A stretch of 64,000 nt of DNA. Source: Microbacterium proteolyticum (GTDB lineage Bacteria > Actinomycetota > Actinomycetes > Actinomycetales > Microbacteriaceae). The stretch is from contig NZ_JAUSZZ010000001.1 in the NCBI RefSeq assembly GCF_030818075.1, forward strand, positions 1,674,001-1,738,000, written 5' to 3'. A program made the translations under genes and the position numbers. Each line of letters opens with the position of its first letter. The stretch's first letter is position 1. The notes under the pieces were generated by a model. The model saw only the letters and a program-made list of their open reading frames with translations. It ran no database searches and was not told where the DNA came from. Shown here one piece after another: positions 3,042 through 58,513 of this stretch.

Positions 3042-3107
3042 CGCGTGAGTCGCCAGAATGTGTCGCCGCGCCGGGGGCTGCGGCGACACACCTTGGCGAC
3101 TCACGCG
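3042..3107. repeat. Palindrome family A, copy 1 (3' flank of the first DUF559 gene)
   Basis: Arms 3042-3069 and 3080-3107 are inverted copies matching at 25 of 28 positions around a 10-base loop. Each arm carries two direct copies of a short core, TGAGTCGCC and TGTGTCGCC. The right arm contains the stop codon of the DUF559 gene and its last two sense codons, so gene end and palindrome are fused. A related copy lies on the other side of that gene at 4059-4122. It could also serve as a bidirectional terminator between murB and the DUF559 gene. Confidence 0.85.
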
Positions 3108-3994
3108 GGTGTGTGCGCCAGTAACCGGCGGATGCGGGCGAGCAGGGCAGGCAGGTCATCGAAGTCGCGAGCCGTCACCACGGTCATGCGGTAGCCGAGC
3201 GACTCCAGCTCCGCCCGACGCGATTGATCTCGGCTCCACTGCTGCGGATCGCGATGGTGGTCGCCGTCGTACTCGATCACGAGGCGGTGCTCGCGATAGA
3301 GCATGTCGACACGAGCGACGAATCGCGCCCCGTCGAAGATCTCGACGTTGCTCTCCGGGACGGGGAGCCCGGCCTGCACCAGCAACACGCGGAGCTCGGA
3401 CTCTCTCGGCGATTCAGAGCGTCCATCGGCGAAGTCCACCGCGAGTCGACGGTTCTTCGATCCGCGGCCACCCAGGAATCTGAGGTGCATCCGCTCGAGA
3501 TCCTCGCGACTGGCGAGTGGGTCACGCCGCGAGAGCAGACGGTCGGAGATCGCTGTCAGCTGTCCCACCCCGAGGAACTCGGCCAGCTCGGCCCACGTCC
3601 GCAGCGGGGAGGTGCACCGGATGCCGTCGACGTCGAGGACGTCGTGCGGTGCGACGCTCAGCATGCGCCCCGTCGTGTGCGGGCGCCGGATGCGATTGCA
3701 ACCCGTCGGCACGCCGATGAACGGCTCCTCCCACGCGCGGGAGCGGAGGGGACCGGGCAGGGGAAACCCGTGCAGGATGGCCGCCGTGGGCCCGCAGAAG
3801 AAGGCGTGCGCAGGCAGCGCGCGCTGCAAAGCTGCGAGCCGTTGCAGCGCCGTTGCGCTCTGCTCGACGCGGACACCGGCGTGGGGCGTCGCCCACCGCG
3901 CCGATCTCATCGTGCTGCGCGTCAGACCGTACGCGACGCCCTCGGTGACGGTGAAGGCCGCGTCGGGTCCGACGGGGCGTGACGGAGGCGGCAT
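3101..3994 (-). CDS. DUF559 (Vsr/PD-(D/E)XK-like) protein bracketed by family A palindromes
   Basis: A 297-residue protein with an N-terminal helix-turn-helix-like region (AFTVTEGVAYGL near residue 13), a middle segment with TAAILHGFPLP near residue 68, and a C-terminal DUF559 domain resembling Vsr and very-short-patch-type nucleases. Candidate catalytic residues lie around RVDMLYREHRLVIEYDGDHH near residue 230: a strand Asp, then E-x-D-G. No substrate is known for this family. The gene is convergent with murB, ends inside one palindrome and starts 65 bases from a second of the same family. Two more DUF559 genes in the window have the same arrangement with different palindromes. A DNA-processing role on these palindromes is inferred only. 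Confidence 0.82.
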   Translation of the reverse strand: MPPPSRPVGPDAAFTVTEGVAYGLTRSTMRSARWATPHAGVRVEQSATALQRLAALQRALPAHAFFCGPTAAILHGFPLPGPLRSRAWEEPFIGVPTGCNRIRRPHTTGRMLSVAPHDVLDVDGIRCTSPLRTWAELAEFLGVGQLTAISDRLLSRRDPLASREDLERMHLRFLGGRGSKNRRLAVDFADGRSESPRESELRVLLVQAGLPVPESNVEIFDGARFVARVDMLYREHRLVIEYDGDHHRDPQQWSRDQSRRAELESLGYRMTVVTARDFDDLPALLARIRRLLAHTPA

Positions 3995-4058
3995 CCGCCG
4001 ATCCTCGCCGTTCCCGCGTCAGCGCGTCGAGATCTCTCCACAAGTTCGCGCTGCGCCC

Positions 4059-4122
4059 GCGCGAGTCGCCAAGAATGGTCGCTTCGCGGGAGCTAGGAGC
4101 GACATATCTTGGCGACTCACGC
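4059..4122. repeat. Palindrome family A, copy 2 (5' flank of the first DUF559 gene)
   Basis: Inverted arms 4059-4083 and 4098-4122 match at 21 of 25 positions around a 14-base loop. The arm core GAGTCGCCAAGA...GTCGC is that of copy 1 at 3042-3107, so the two bracket the DUF559 gene. It lies upstream of that gene and downstream of the aminotransferase stop, followed by a short run of GGGGCGCG repeats at 4131-4168. Confidence 0.8.
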
Positions 4123-4175
4123 CTCGGCATGCGGGGCGCGGGGCGCGGCGCGGGGCGCGGGGCGCGGGGCGCGGG

Positions 4176-5375
4176 TCAGGAGAACAGGCGCTGGAGGCGC
4201 TGCACACCCTCGAGGAGCTGGTCGTCGCCGAGGGCGTACGACAGGCGCAGGTAGCCGCTGGGCCCGAAGGCCTCGCCCGGGACGACCGCGACCTCGGCCT
4301 TCTCGAGGATGAGGTCGGCGAGCTCGAGCGAGGTGGTGGGCGTGACGCCCTCCCACGTCCGGTTCAGCAGGCCCTGCACGTCGGGGTAGACGTAGAACGC
4401 GCCGAGCGGGTTGGGCACCTCGACGCCGTCGATCTTCGACAGCTCCGACACGATGAGCTTCCGCCGTCGGTCGAAGGCGAGGCGGAACTGCTCGGCCTCG
4501 TCCTGCGGGCCGGTGAGCGCGGCAGCGGCCGCCCGCTGGGCGACGTTGTTGACGTTGCTCGACAGGTGCGACTGCAGGTTGCCGGCGAGCTTCATGGCAT
4601 CCGCCGGTCCCACCATCCAGCCCACGCGCCAACCGGTCATCGCGTAGGTCTTGGCGACGCCGTTGACGAGGATGGTCTGCTCGGCGAGCTCGGGCACGGC
4701 CTCGACGATGGAGACGGCGCGCACGCCCTCGTAGGTGAGGTTCTGGTAGATCTCATCGGTGATCACCCAGATGCCGTGCTCGAGCGCCCAGCGACCGATT
4801 TCGGCGGTCTCTTCGGCGGTGTAGACCGAGCCGGTGGGGTTGGACGGCGACACGAAGACGAGCACGGTCGTCTTGTCGGTGCGGGCCGCCTCGAGCTGGG
4901 CGACGGTGACCTTGTAGTCCTGGTCGGCCCCGGCGAACACCTCGACCGGCGTGCCGTCGGCCAGCGCGATGGCCTCGGGGTAGGTCGTCCAGTACGGAGC
5001 GGGCAGCAGCACCTCGTCACCGGGGTTCACCACGGTCTGGAACGCCTGATAAACGGACTGCTTTCCGCCGTTGGTCACGATGACCTGCGAGGGCGCCACC
5101 TCGAGGCCGGAGTCGCGCAGCGTCTTGGCGGCGATCGCCTCGCGCAGCACCGGGAGGCCGGCGGCGGGCGTGTAGCGGTAGTTCTTCGGGTCCTGCAGCG
5201 CCTCGGCGGCGGCATCCACGATGAACGAGGGCGTGGCGAAATCCGGCTCACCCGCGGCGTACGAGATCACCGGGCGGCCGGCGGCCTGCAGGGCCTTCGC
5301 CTTGGCGTCGACCTTCAGGGTCGCGGACTCGGCGATGGCGGAGAGCTTGCGGGAGAGCGGGGCGCGGGAAGTCAC
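4176..5375 (-). CDS. Class I/II PLP-dependent aminotransferase (aspartate aminotransferase type)
   Basis: A 399-residue fold-type I aminotransferase, probably transferring the amino group between aspartate (or another amino acid) and 2-oxoglutarate in the cytoplasm. Visible landmarks are SYAAGEPDFATP near residue 35, YRYTPAAGLP near residue 70, VFVSPSNPTG near residue 175, DEIYQNLTYEG near residue 210 and the PLP-lysine segment VAKTYAMTGWRVGW near residue 240. The GTG at 5375 is preferred because it begins directly before the conserved ALSRKL-like N-terminus (TSRAPLSRKL); a longer reading would run into intergenic repeats. In related genomes this gene lies next to tRNA-Trp-secE; here about 22 kb intervene. 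Confidence 0.92.
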   Translation of the reverse strand: MTSRAPLSRKLSAIAESATLKVDAKAKALQAAGRPVISYAAGEPDFATPSFIVDAAAEALQDPKNYRYTPAAGLPVLREAIAAKTLRDSGLEVAPSQVIVTNGGKQSVYQAFQTVVNPGDEVLLPAPYWTTYPEAIALADGTPVEVFAGADQDYKVTVAQLEAARTDKTTVLVFVSPSNPTGSVYTAEETAEIGRWALEHGIWVITDEIYQNLTYEGVRAVSIVEAVPELAEQTILVNGVAKTYAMTGWRVGWMVGPADAMKLAGNLQSHLSSNVNNVAQRAAAAALTGPQDEAEQFRLAFDRRRKLIVSELSKIDGVEVPNPLGAFYVYPDVQGLLNRTWEGVTPTTSLELADLILEKAEVAVVPGEAFGPSGYLRLSYALGDDQLLEGVQRLQRLFS

Positions 5376-5544
5376 GGCTTCGAGCCTACTGTTTCGGCCG
5401 CGTTGCGCCGAGACCAGACCACCGAACTCAGCCACGGCAGGAACGGGGGCGTGAGCATCAGGATGCCGAGCCCCCGCATCACAAGAGAGACCACCCTCGG
5501 ACCTCGTCGGCGCACGGCCAGGACGGTCCCGACGACCGCGCGTA

Positions 5545-5736
5545 CCGCGACCCTCCGGCGCACCGAGCGCGGCGAAGAGCCGAGGCCGTCGTGGCCCCGG
5601 CCCTCCGGCATCCCGCCGCGCACCGAGTGCGGCGAAGGCCCGGGACCGTCGTGGCCCCAGCCCCGGAATCCCGCCGCGCGCCGAGCGCGGCGAAGGGCCG
5701 AGGCCGTCGTGGCCCCGGCCCTCCGGCATCCCGCCG
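5545..5736. repeat. About 60-bp GC-rich tandem repeat; rest of gap 5376-5736
   Basis: The gap between the aminotransferase start and the malate synthase stop holds about three diverged units. The word CGGCGAAG recurs at 5571, 5631 and 5688, each followed by a version of CCGTCGTGGCCCC and a CATCCCGCCG block. No gene or promoter stands out. The repeats create long spurious open frames on both strands, including an apparent N-terminal extension of the aminotransferase. Confidence 0.7.
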
Positions 5737-57808: not shown

Positions 57809-57821
57809 TCCCGAGACGACG

Positions 57822-57857
57822 AAGGGGCGTGACACCGGTGGGGGTGTCACGCCCCTT
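57822..57857 (+). terminator. Strong terminator after the sugar transporter operon
   Basis: A perfect 15-bp stem, AAGGGGCGTGACACC (57822-57836) and GGTGTCACGCCCCTT (57843-57857), with a six-base loop and TCTCG following; it begins 13 bases after the aglG stop. Confidence 0.9.
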
Positions 57858-58023
57858 TCTCGTGCGGCGGGTGGCGGGACCGCTTGGCGTGCGGTGGGGT
57901 GGCGGTGCGGCTTGGCGTGCGGTGGGGTGGTGTGTGCGGTGGATGGCCGCGAGGCTGCCCGGGGTGTGCGATGTGGGAACGTTCGCGCGTGCGCGACCGC
58001 GGCGGTGGGGGCTGGTGCGTGTC

Positions 58024-58090
58024 GCATAAACGGCATCCGTGCGCGGAAACACGGTGACGGAGTGTTTATGCGCACGGATCGTGTTTATGC
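58024..58090. repeat. Palindrome family D, copy 6
   Basis: 67 bp; the 30-base arms pair at 24 positions around the loop GTGACGG. The left arm reads GCATAAACGGCATCCGTGCG, differing from copies 1-5 at the CACG core; the right arm ends in the invariant GATCGTGTTTATGC. Confidence 0.88.
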
Positions 58091-58221
58091 GTGGGCGGCG
58101 GCGAGCAGGGCGCCGGGCGCGGCGGCGACGGCGGTTGCGCCGAGCGCGGGTCGGGCGCGGCCCCGCGTGGCCGGGCGGGACTGCACGGGATGCGACCGCG
58201 GCGGCGGGGATGGTGCGTGTC

Positions 58222-58288
58222 GCATAAACGGCATCCGTGCGCGGAAACACGCTGACGGAGTGTTTATGCCCACGGATTGTGTTTATGC
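58222..58288. repeat. Palindrome family D, copy 7
   Basis: 67 bp, nearly identical to copy 6 with loop CTGACGG and a right arm ending GATTGTGTTTATGC. Confidence 0.88.
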
Positions 58289-58446
58289 GTGGGTGGTGGC
58301 GAGCAGGGCGCCGGGCGCGGCGGCGACGGCGGTTGCGCTGAGCGCGGCGGCGACGGCGGTTGCGCTGAGCGCGGGTCGGGCGCGGCCCCGCGTGGCCGGG
58401 CGGGACTGCACGGGATGCGACCGCGGCGGCGGGGATGGTGCGTGTC

Positions 58447-58513
58447 GCATAAACGGCATCCGTGCGCGGAAACACGGTGACGGAGTGTTTATGCGCACGG
58501 ATCGTGTTTATGC
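58447..58513. repeat. Palindrome family D, copy 8
   Basis: 67 bp, identical to copy 6 as far as can be compared by eye. Confidence 0.88.

Follow-up and report, generated by a model that had tools for sequence, protein, structure and literature searches.

The stretch of DNA analysed here, hereafter the window, comprises 64,000 nucleotides of Microbacterium proteolyticum (G000:C1:1674001-1738000 in the source genome G000, which is complete at 3,767,688 bases) and carries three genes for nuclease-like proteins, each set between copies of a large palindrome. We located the palindromes with an ungapped scan and compared it with 20 first-order Markov simulations of the window. This way, we recovered all 15 palindromes in five sequence families that a preliminary description of the locus had listed (A, two copies; B, one; C, three; D, eight; E, one). 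The genes and the palindromes beside them are given below, the palindromes as found by the scan and without strand.

3042..3107: palindrome A on the 3′ side of gene 1, overlapping the gene 1 stop
3101..3994, minus strand: gene 1 (P0003, 297 amino acids), predicted model with an AbiEi-fold N-terminal module (residues 4-190) and a Vsr/I-Bth0305I-type nuclease (193-297)
4059..4122: palindrome A on the 5′ side of gene 1 (flank match 58, against a 99.9% null of 41; see below)
29205..29277: palindrome D on the 3′ side of gene 2
29515..29587: palindrome D on the 3′ side of gene 2
29662..29728: palindrome D on the 3′ side of gene 2
29805..29873: palindrome D adjoining the gene 2 stop
29876..30826, minus strand: gene 2 (P0001, 316 amino acids), two-domain architecture as in gene 1 by predicted model and profile
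30935..30999: palindrome D on the 5′ side of gene 2 (flank match 98)
44581..44664: palindrome C on the 5′ side of gene 3
44747..45752, plus strand: gene 3 (P0002 from about 45024), a relative of genes 1 and 2 (profile match 1.8e-33), frame broken near 45010-45030
46129..46191 (scan span 46097-46204): palindrome C on the 3′ side of gene 3

Simulated windows contained on average 0.0 palindromes scoring at least 18, 0.55 scoring at least 16 and 3.1 scoring at least 14. The second A copy (score 17) and the B copy (16) are set apart by family membership rather than by score, and three hairpins that belong to no family also reach at least 16 (16920-16989, 47465-47500, and 57816-57863). Of the D palindromes beside gene 2, four lie 3′ of the gene and one lies 5′ of it. 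That all three genes have the same family on both sides, as first proposed, holds, although the gene 3 flank match of 41 only equals the 99.9% null. The 5′ and 3′ parts of gene 3 lie in separate frames, an arrangement that decay and a sequencing error fit alike.

To look beyond the window, we searched 119 genomes of the genus and 149 of the phylum, fetched the flanks, and tested 125 loci with both flanks (79 from the genus, 46 from other Actinomycetota). The loci are the best-scoring matches among those listed, so that close relatives are over-represented. Contig-edge loci (L028, L031, L135, L143, L146, L162, L163, L172, L098, L103, and L112) were left out, L058 and L062 were removed, and loci from the E-gene search that repeated genus-search loci as well as an other-type gene at genome position 2566646 were likewise omitted. 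The flank test takes the best local match between the 600 bases upstream and the 600 bases downstream, with all 7268 genus-by-phylum cross pairs as the null (median 24, 99% point 35, 99.9% point 41, maximum 43). Matches above 41 were found at 90 of the 125 loci (56/79 in the genus, 34/46 in the phylum set) and at none of 68 control open reading frames, all taken from the source genome; above 35, the counts were 64/79, 37/46, and 1/68. Palindromes scoring at least 15 stood on both sides of 54/125 loci against 0/68 controls, and on at least one side of 99/125 against 17/68. Of the 90 matches, 75 align both ways round with a score above 30, as expected of palindromes. A locus's own downstream flank was its best partner in 35/46 cases in the phylum set but in 31/79 in the genus set, because there orthologous loci and shared families compete. 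Thus, many actinobacterial genomes hold a nuclease-like gene with a copy of its own roughly 60-letter palindrome at either end (median length 62 bp over 166 palindromes). The pairing of gene and palindrome family, initially read from three genes, is thereby borne out in genus and phylum genomes, with matched flanks at most of the loci tested.

All three genes had been assigned to DUF559. What stands is that they form one related family: a profile built from 32 other members, deliberately without orthologues of genes 1–3, detects all of them (2.1e-67; 1.3e-46 for P0001; 1.8e-33 for P0002). The Pfam DUF559 cut-off, however, is passed by gene 1 only (24.5 bits against 20.6); genes 2 and 3 have no Pfam DUF559 match, and Pfam and NCBIfam names gave nothing useful. 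The best matches of gene 2 are a protein of Microbacterium sp. lyk4-40-TSB-66 (78% identity) and one of M. testaceum (70%). The family occurs in 119/119 genus genomes, with 1–15 profile matches each, and a relative is present in 59 of the 149 phylum genomes. Modelling predicts an AbiEi-fold module joined to a Vsr/EDxHD-type nuclease, with the same predicted fold for gene 2; a second look with VIA-align resolved the protein into two domains, and the family profile matches the Vsr-like 3hrl by sequence (1.9e-6). Foldseek alone returned no match at E ≤0.001 (3r3p at 2.0e-3), although absence from structure lists proves nothing. Among 72 members, E198 is invariant (72/72) and D230 and E241 are each kept in 71/72, and eight gene pairs gave ratios of non-synonymous to synonymous substitution rates (dN/dS) of 0.11–0.26. 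A tblastn search of viral contigs with gene 1 found no relative.

The source genome has eight profile matches in all, namely the three window genes and five more; four of the eight exceed 41 in the flank test and six exceed 35. By eye, related palindromes stand on both sides of the genes at 3292971 (GCACAAAGTGGGACA), 3564751 (GAACTCCGGAGAA), and 3552085 (GTGGCCCCGGGGCG), while the gene at 3371387 has three palindromes upstream and a match of 49 downstream. Two other loci deserve mention: a DUF559-like gene of another type, with a cysteine-bearing middle part (L012, genome 2565514-2567963), has two large palindromes nearby that belong to unlike families, each with repeated arms, and a weak profile match (L237, G254:C1:2293769) is flanked by TGTTTCACGTGAAACA repeats, which resemble ParB parS sites.

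Palindromes diverge along with the genes that they flank. Across the 52 genus genes that have a palindrome at either end, the two flanks of one unit resemble each other at medians of 45–65 in every protein-identity bin, whereas the median similarity between palindromes of different genes is 15–16 up to 50% protein identity, 31 at 60–65%, and 63 at 70–80% (Mantel rho 0.33; 0 of 2000 permutations). At 45–70% identity, the flanks of each gene were more alike than either was to those of the other gene in 295 of 318 pairs.

Further copies of the same families lie in the window away from any gene of the family.

7462..7523: solo palindrome E, whose cognate gene lies at 1589434-1590384 of the genome
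18327..18404: solo palindrome C
37105..37519: three 44-bp palindromes of family F (GTGGCCCCGGGGCG) at near-tandem spacing; F copies also bracket the gene at 3552085, some 1.8 Mb away in the genome
47511..47575: solo palindrome B
58023..58091: solo palindrome D, with a related palindrome at the orthologous site in each of five other genomes
58221..58289: solo palindrome D
58446..58514: solo palindrome D

Family F (copies at 37105, 37351, and 37476) is a sixth, shorter family that was absent from the preliminary description. Families E and F have no gene in the window; their cognate genes lie elsewhere in the source genome. Family B was seen to flank none of the genome's eight genes, and it flanks the orthologue of gene 1 in two other genomes (G016, locus L117, and G073, locus L140); the solo B copy is possibly a relic of an older specificity.

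Dispersal beyond the genes, part of the original proposal, was counted for families E and D and for the family of a distant genome. With one mismatch allowed, the E half-site occurs in 25 of the 119 genus genomes and in none of the other 94, with at least 7 copies in 17; G000 has 29, the maximum of 146 is reached in G093, and a reversed-pattern control gave 0. An E-type gene of at least 230 bits is present in 16 genomes, 14 of which are among those 17. The two genomes with the gene only (G070 and G050) have variant palindromes around their E-type genes; among the three that have only the half-sites, G053 carries a shortened E gene flanked by a half-site at either end. D half-sites occur in 10/119 genomes, at least three in exactly seven, which are those with a gene 2 at least 68% identical, and one each in G009, G023, and G070. 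Copy number thus tracks the cognate gene for both families (Fisher 1.3e-13 for E and 1.8e-11 for D), values that overstate the case because the cut-offs (7 and 3 half-sites, 230 bits, and 68% identity) were set post hoc and the genomes are related.

The distant genome, G254, shares only the phylum with the source. The palindrome of its best-matching gene is present as 34 forward and 37 reverse half-sites, 68 of which (of 71) pair at exactly 30 bp to give 34 full palindromes. Both arms have the same base at the variable ninth position in 33 of these 34, a pattern that could stem from the copying of entire sub-families instead of compensatory changes; co-variation between E arms is weak (22/41 against 14.9 expected, p 0.0175).

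Comparison of orthologous sites gave a view of how the copies change between species. At the solo D site, which is 27 kb away from gene 2, the palindrome is closest to the gene 2 flanks of its own genome in three of six genomes (G007, G020, and G093), and the observed sum was reached by 6 of 720 permutations; the copies were hand-picked, some were trimmed, and one G072 flank was taken from L136, the scan having given a single flank. A solo copy that changes with the flanks of the gene is the strongest sign of action in trans, at one site and with three clear genomes. The site beside murB, a neighbour of gene 1, was read in 17 genomes, with the gene content of larger inserts (G021 and G002) and four long-gap genomes left out, and its occupancy varies by species: G000 has the unit with A, G016 an orthologous gene with B on both sides, G020 a solo A-like palindrome, G006 an A-like palindrome with a gene remnant, and G009 a solo B. 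Palindromes of other families stand there in G015, G002, and G014, a short hairpin alone in G007 and G021, and none scoring at least 13 in G018, G008, G004, G013, G012, G005, or G022. With regard to a neighbouring DUF1814 toxin gene, as in AbiE systems, one neighbour of gene 1 is MurB and a few other open reading frames gave no Pfam match, in a look at neighbours that was not systematic. At the site of the window's E palindrome, an E copy is found in G007, G020, and G093 and a half-site remnant in G009, while G016 carries a palindrome of another family there, of the TGTCCCGCTT type (L131, G016:C17:8400-9000), which amounts to turnover at one site.

Among the loci listed, many units occupy shared positions in several species. 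It is therefore the palindrome rather than the unit that disperses, as is the case for REPINs, and spread of the unit, the other half of the original proposal, is not favoured. At the 3292 locus the unit is inverted in G000, G009, G053, and G093 relative to G072, G020, G109, and others, within the same surroundings; recombination between inverted copies would give this result.

We interpret these data as a REP/RAYT-like system built on a different enzyme, in which the protein would bind and cut its own palindrome, the breaks being repaired from other copies and the palindromes thereby converted and spread, a reading to which we assign a probability of roughly 60%. Through its AbiEi-type module, one monomer of the protein would sit on each inverted arm of the palindrome, and the Vsr/EDxHD-type domain would nick or cut at the bound palindrome. 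Repair of the break from another copy would keep the palindromes of a genome alike, both flanks being converted together. Recombination between flanks could flip or delete the unit, deletion leaving a solo palindrome, and a copy would occasionally be placed at a new site. The gene would thus remain at its locus over long times while its palindromes disperse in trans. Binding and cutting by the protein, copying as the cause, and transposition are what we infer. The geometry counts in favour: the inverted repeats bound by AbiEi-family proteins are 23 bp long with 3 or 13 bp between them (PMC7319586), and I-Bth0305I dimerises over nearly 60 bp (PMC3943268), beside which the median palindrome measures 62 bp.

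Several observations weigh against this reading. At 35 of the 125 loci the flank match is below or at the 99.9% threshold, and the E gene at 1589434 has two E copies downstream but no palindrome upstream. In G254, clear matched flanks accompany 3 of 16 profile matches (scores 109, 105, and 78), which means that not all distant relatives share the arrangement, and the common A and G palindrome variants of that genome were seen beside none of the family's genes. E half-sites number 15 in G016 and 16 in G063, neither of which has a gene reaching 230 bits. More generally, the presence of the gene and that of the palindrome both track genome kinship, adding to the inflation of the Fisher values. 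At the solo D site, the palindromes of G000, G006, and G072 do not match their own genome's gene 2 flanks best, the first two being interchangeable and G072 fitting others better. The orthologous sites compared yielded no clean empty site with exact borders; the surrounding sequence there is too diverged for anything but occupancy to be read. The opposite orientations at the 3292 locus could also stem from independent insertion. Finally, a protein that cuts its own intact flanks would need control.

Of the other explanations, the one that survives best, which we nevertheless judge unlikely, makes the protein an AbiEi-like autoregulator: the flanking palindromes would be operators or terminators, the solo copies a regulon or relics of unrelated recombination, and the nuclease would act elsewhere. 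AbiEi and Rv2827c are reported to repress by binding inverted repeats (PMC7319586), and our palindromes stand, by median distance, 64 bp ahead of the called start and 9 bp beyond the stop. Yet neither an operator nor a terminator needs two-sided matching and dozens of dispersed copies, and the nuclease residues are nearly invariant. Still less probable is a defence or toxin-like role, in which the nuclease attacks invading or unmodified DNA and the chromosomal palindromes titrate, store or license it. Unlike most defence genes, the family forms a one-gene unit that is present in every genus genome, often at shared loci, a weak argument in so far as partner genes were not searched for. We consider it very improbable that the gene is cargo between terminal repeats or miniature inverted-repeat transposable elements of an unrelated transposase. 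This would suit the observation that one site is held by different families in different species, but the family gene is the only gene between the flanking palindromes, palindrome sequence co-varies with gene divergence, and across the phylum the same pairing is seen again with other sequences. GC-rich terminators of the ordinary kind together with chance, to which the 17 of 68 control genes with a one-sided palindrome might point, can hardly be credited and were rejected on the control genes: none of the 68 has a flank match above 41 or a palindrome at each end, and simulations seldom yield such palindromes.

If the REP/RAYT-like reading is true, dispersed palindromes with a dedicated enzyme have a second origin, which lets what keeps REPIN-RAYT pairs together over the long term be tested. 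It also points to a function for an actinobacterial family that is very common but uncharacterised, and provides many natural, matched pairs of nuclease and 60-bp target from which to read how specificity is encoded. On a broader proposition we are evenly divided: that these units form a phylum-wide class, selfish or domesticated, in which an AbiEi-steered homing-type nuclease acts in trans to multiply the palindrome that it targets, which would make a second and independent REPIN-RAYT-like invention in a group reported to lack RAYTs. A survey of TnpA-Y1 proteins lists Actinobacteridae with subclass 1.1 only (PMC6006769).

In the open-access literature, our coverage excluding subscription papers and preprints, we found no account of this gene–palindrome system, and several known systems resemble it in part. 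The EDxHD (Vsr-like) homing endonuclease I-Bth0305I shares the catalytic domain type predicted by our model; here, in contrast, the presumed target is whole on both sides of the gene and at many other places, uninterrupted by the gene, and the DNA-binding part is predicted to be AbiEi-like. AbiEi and Rv2827c, from type IV toxin-antitoxin systems, would share the AbiEi fold, whereas here the module appears fused to a nuclease and its candidate sites flank the gene on both sides and are dispersed. CGTC-tagged REPs are likewise dispersed palindromes, but are found mainly in alpha-Proteobacteria and are reported without a dedicated transposase (PMC3733652); they are a worthwhile place to look for a Vsr-like partner. 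In arrangement the system matches the REPtron as described in PMC6006769 and PMC3116915: one long-kept gene per palindrome type, flanked by its own palindromes with further copies dispersed, two inverted arms around a variable spacer, and co-divergence. The RAYT/REPIN likeness put forward in the preliminary description therefore holds for architecture and evolutionary behaviour, but not for the enzyme, which by predicted model is no RAYT: it has no HUH/Y1 transposase domain, and there is no Y1 transposase among the Pfam matches. The palindromes differ from REPs as well, being a median 62 bp long and, by eye, showing the GT[AG]G foot on none of the 15 in the window. Overall, the system has the look of an independent, second counterpart to the REP/RAYT repeats known from other bacteria.

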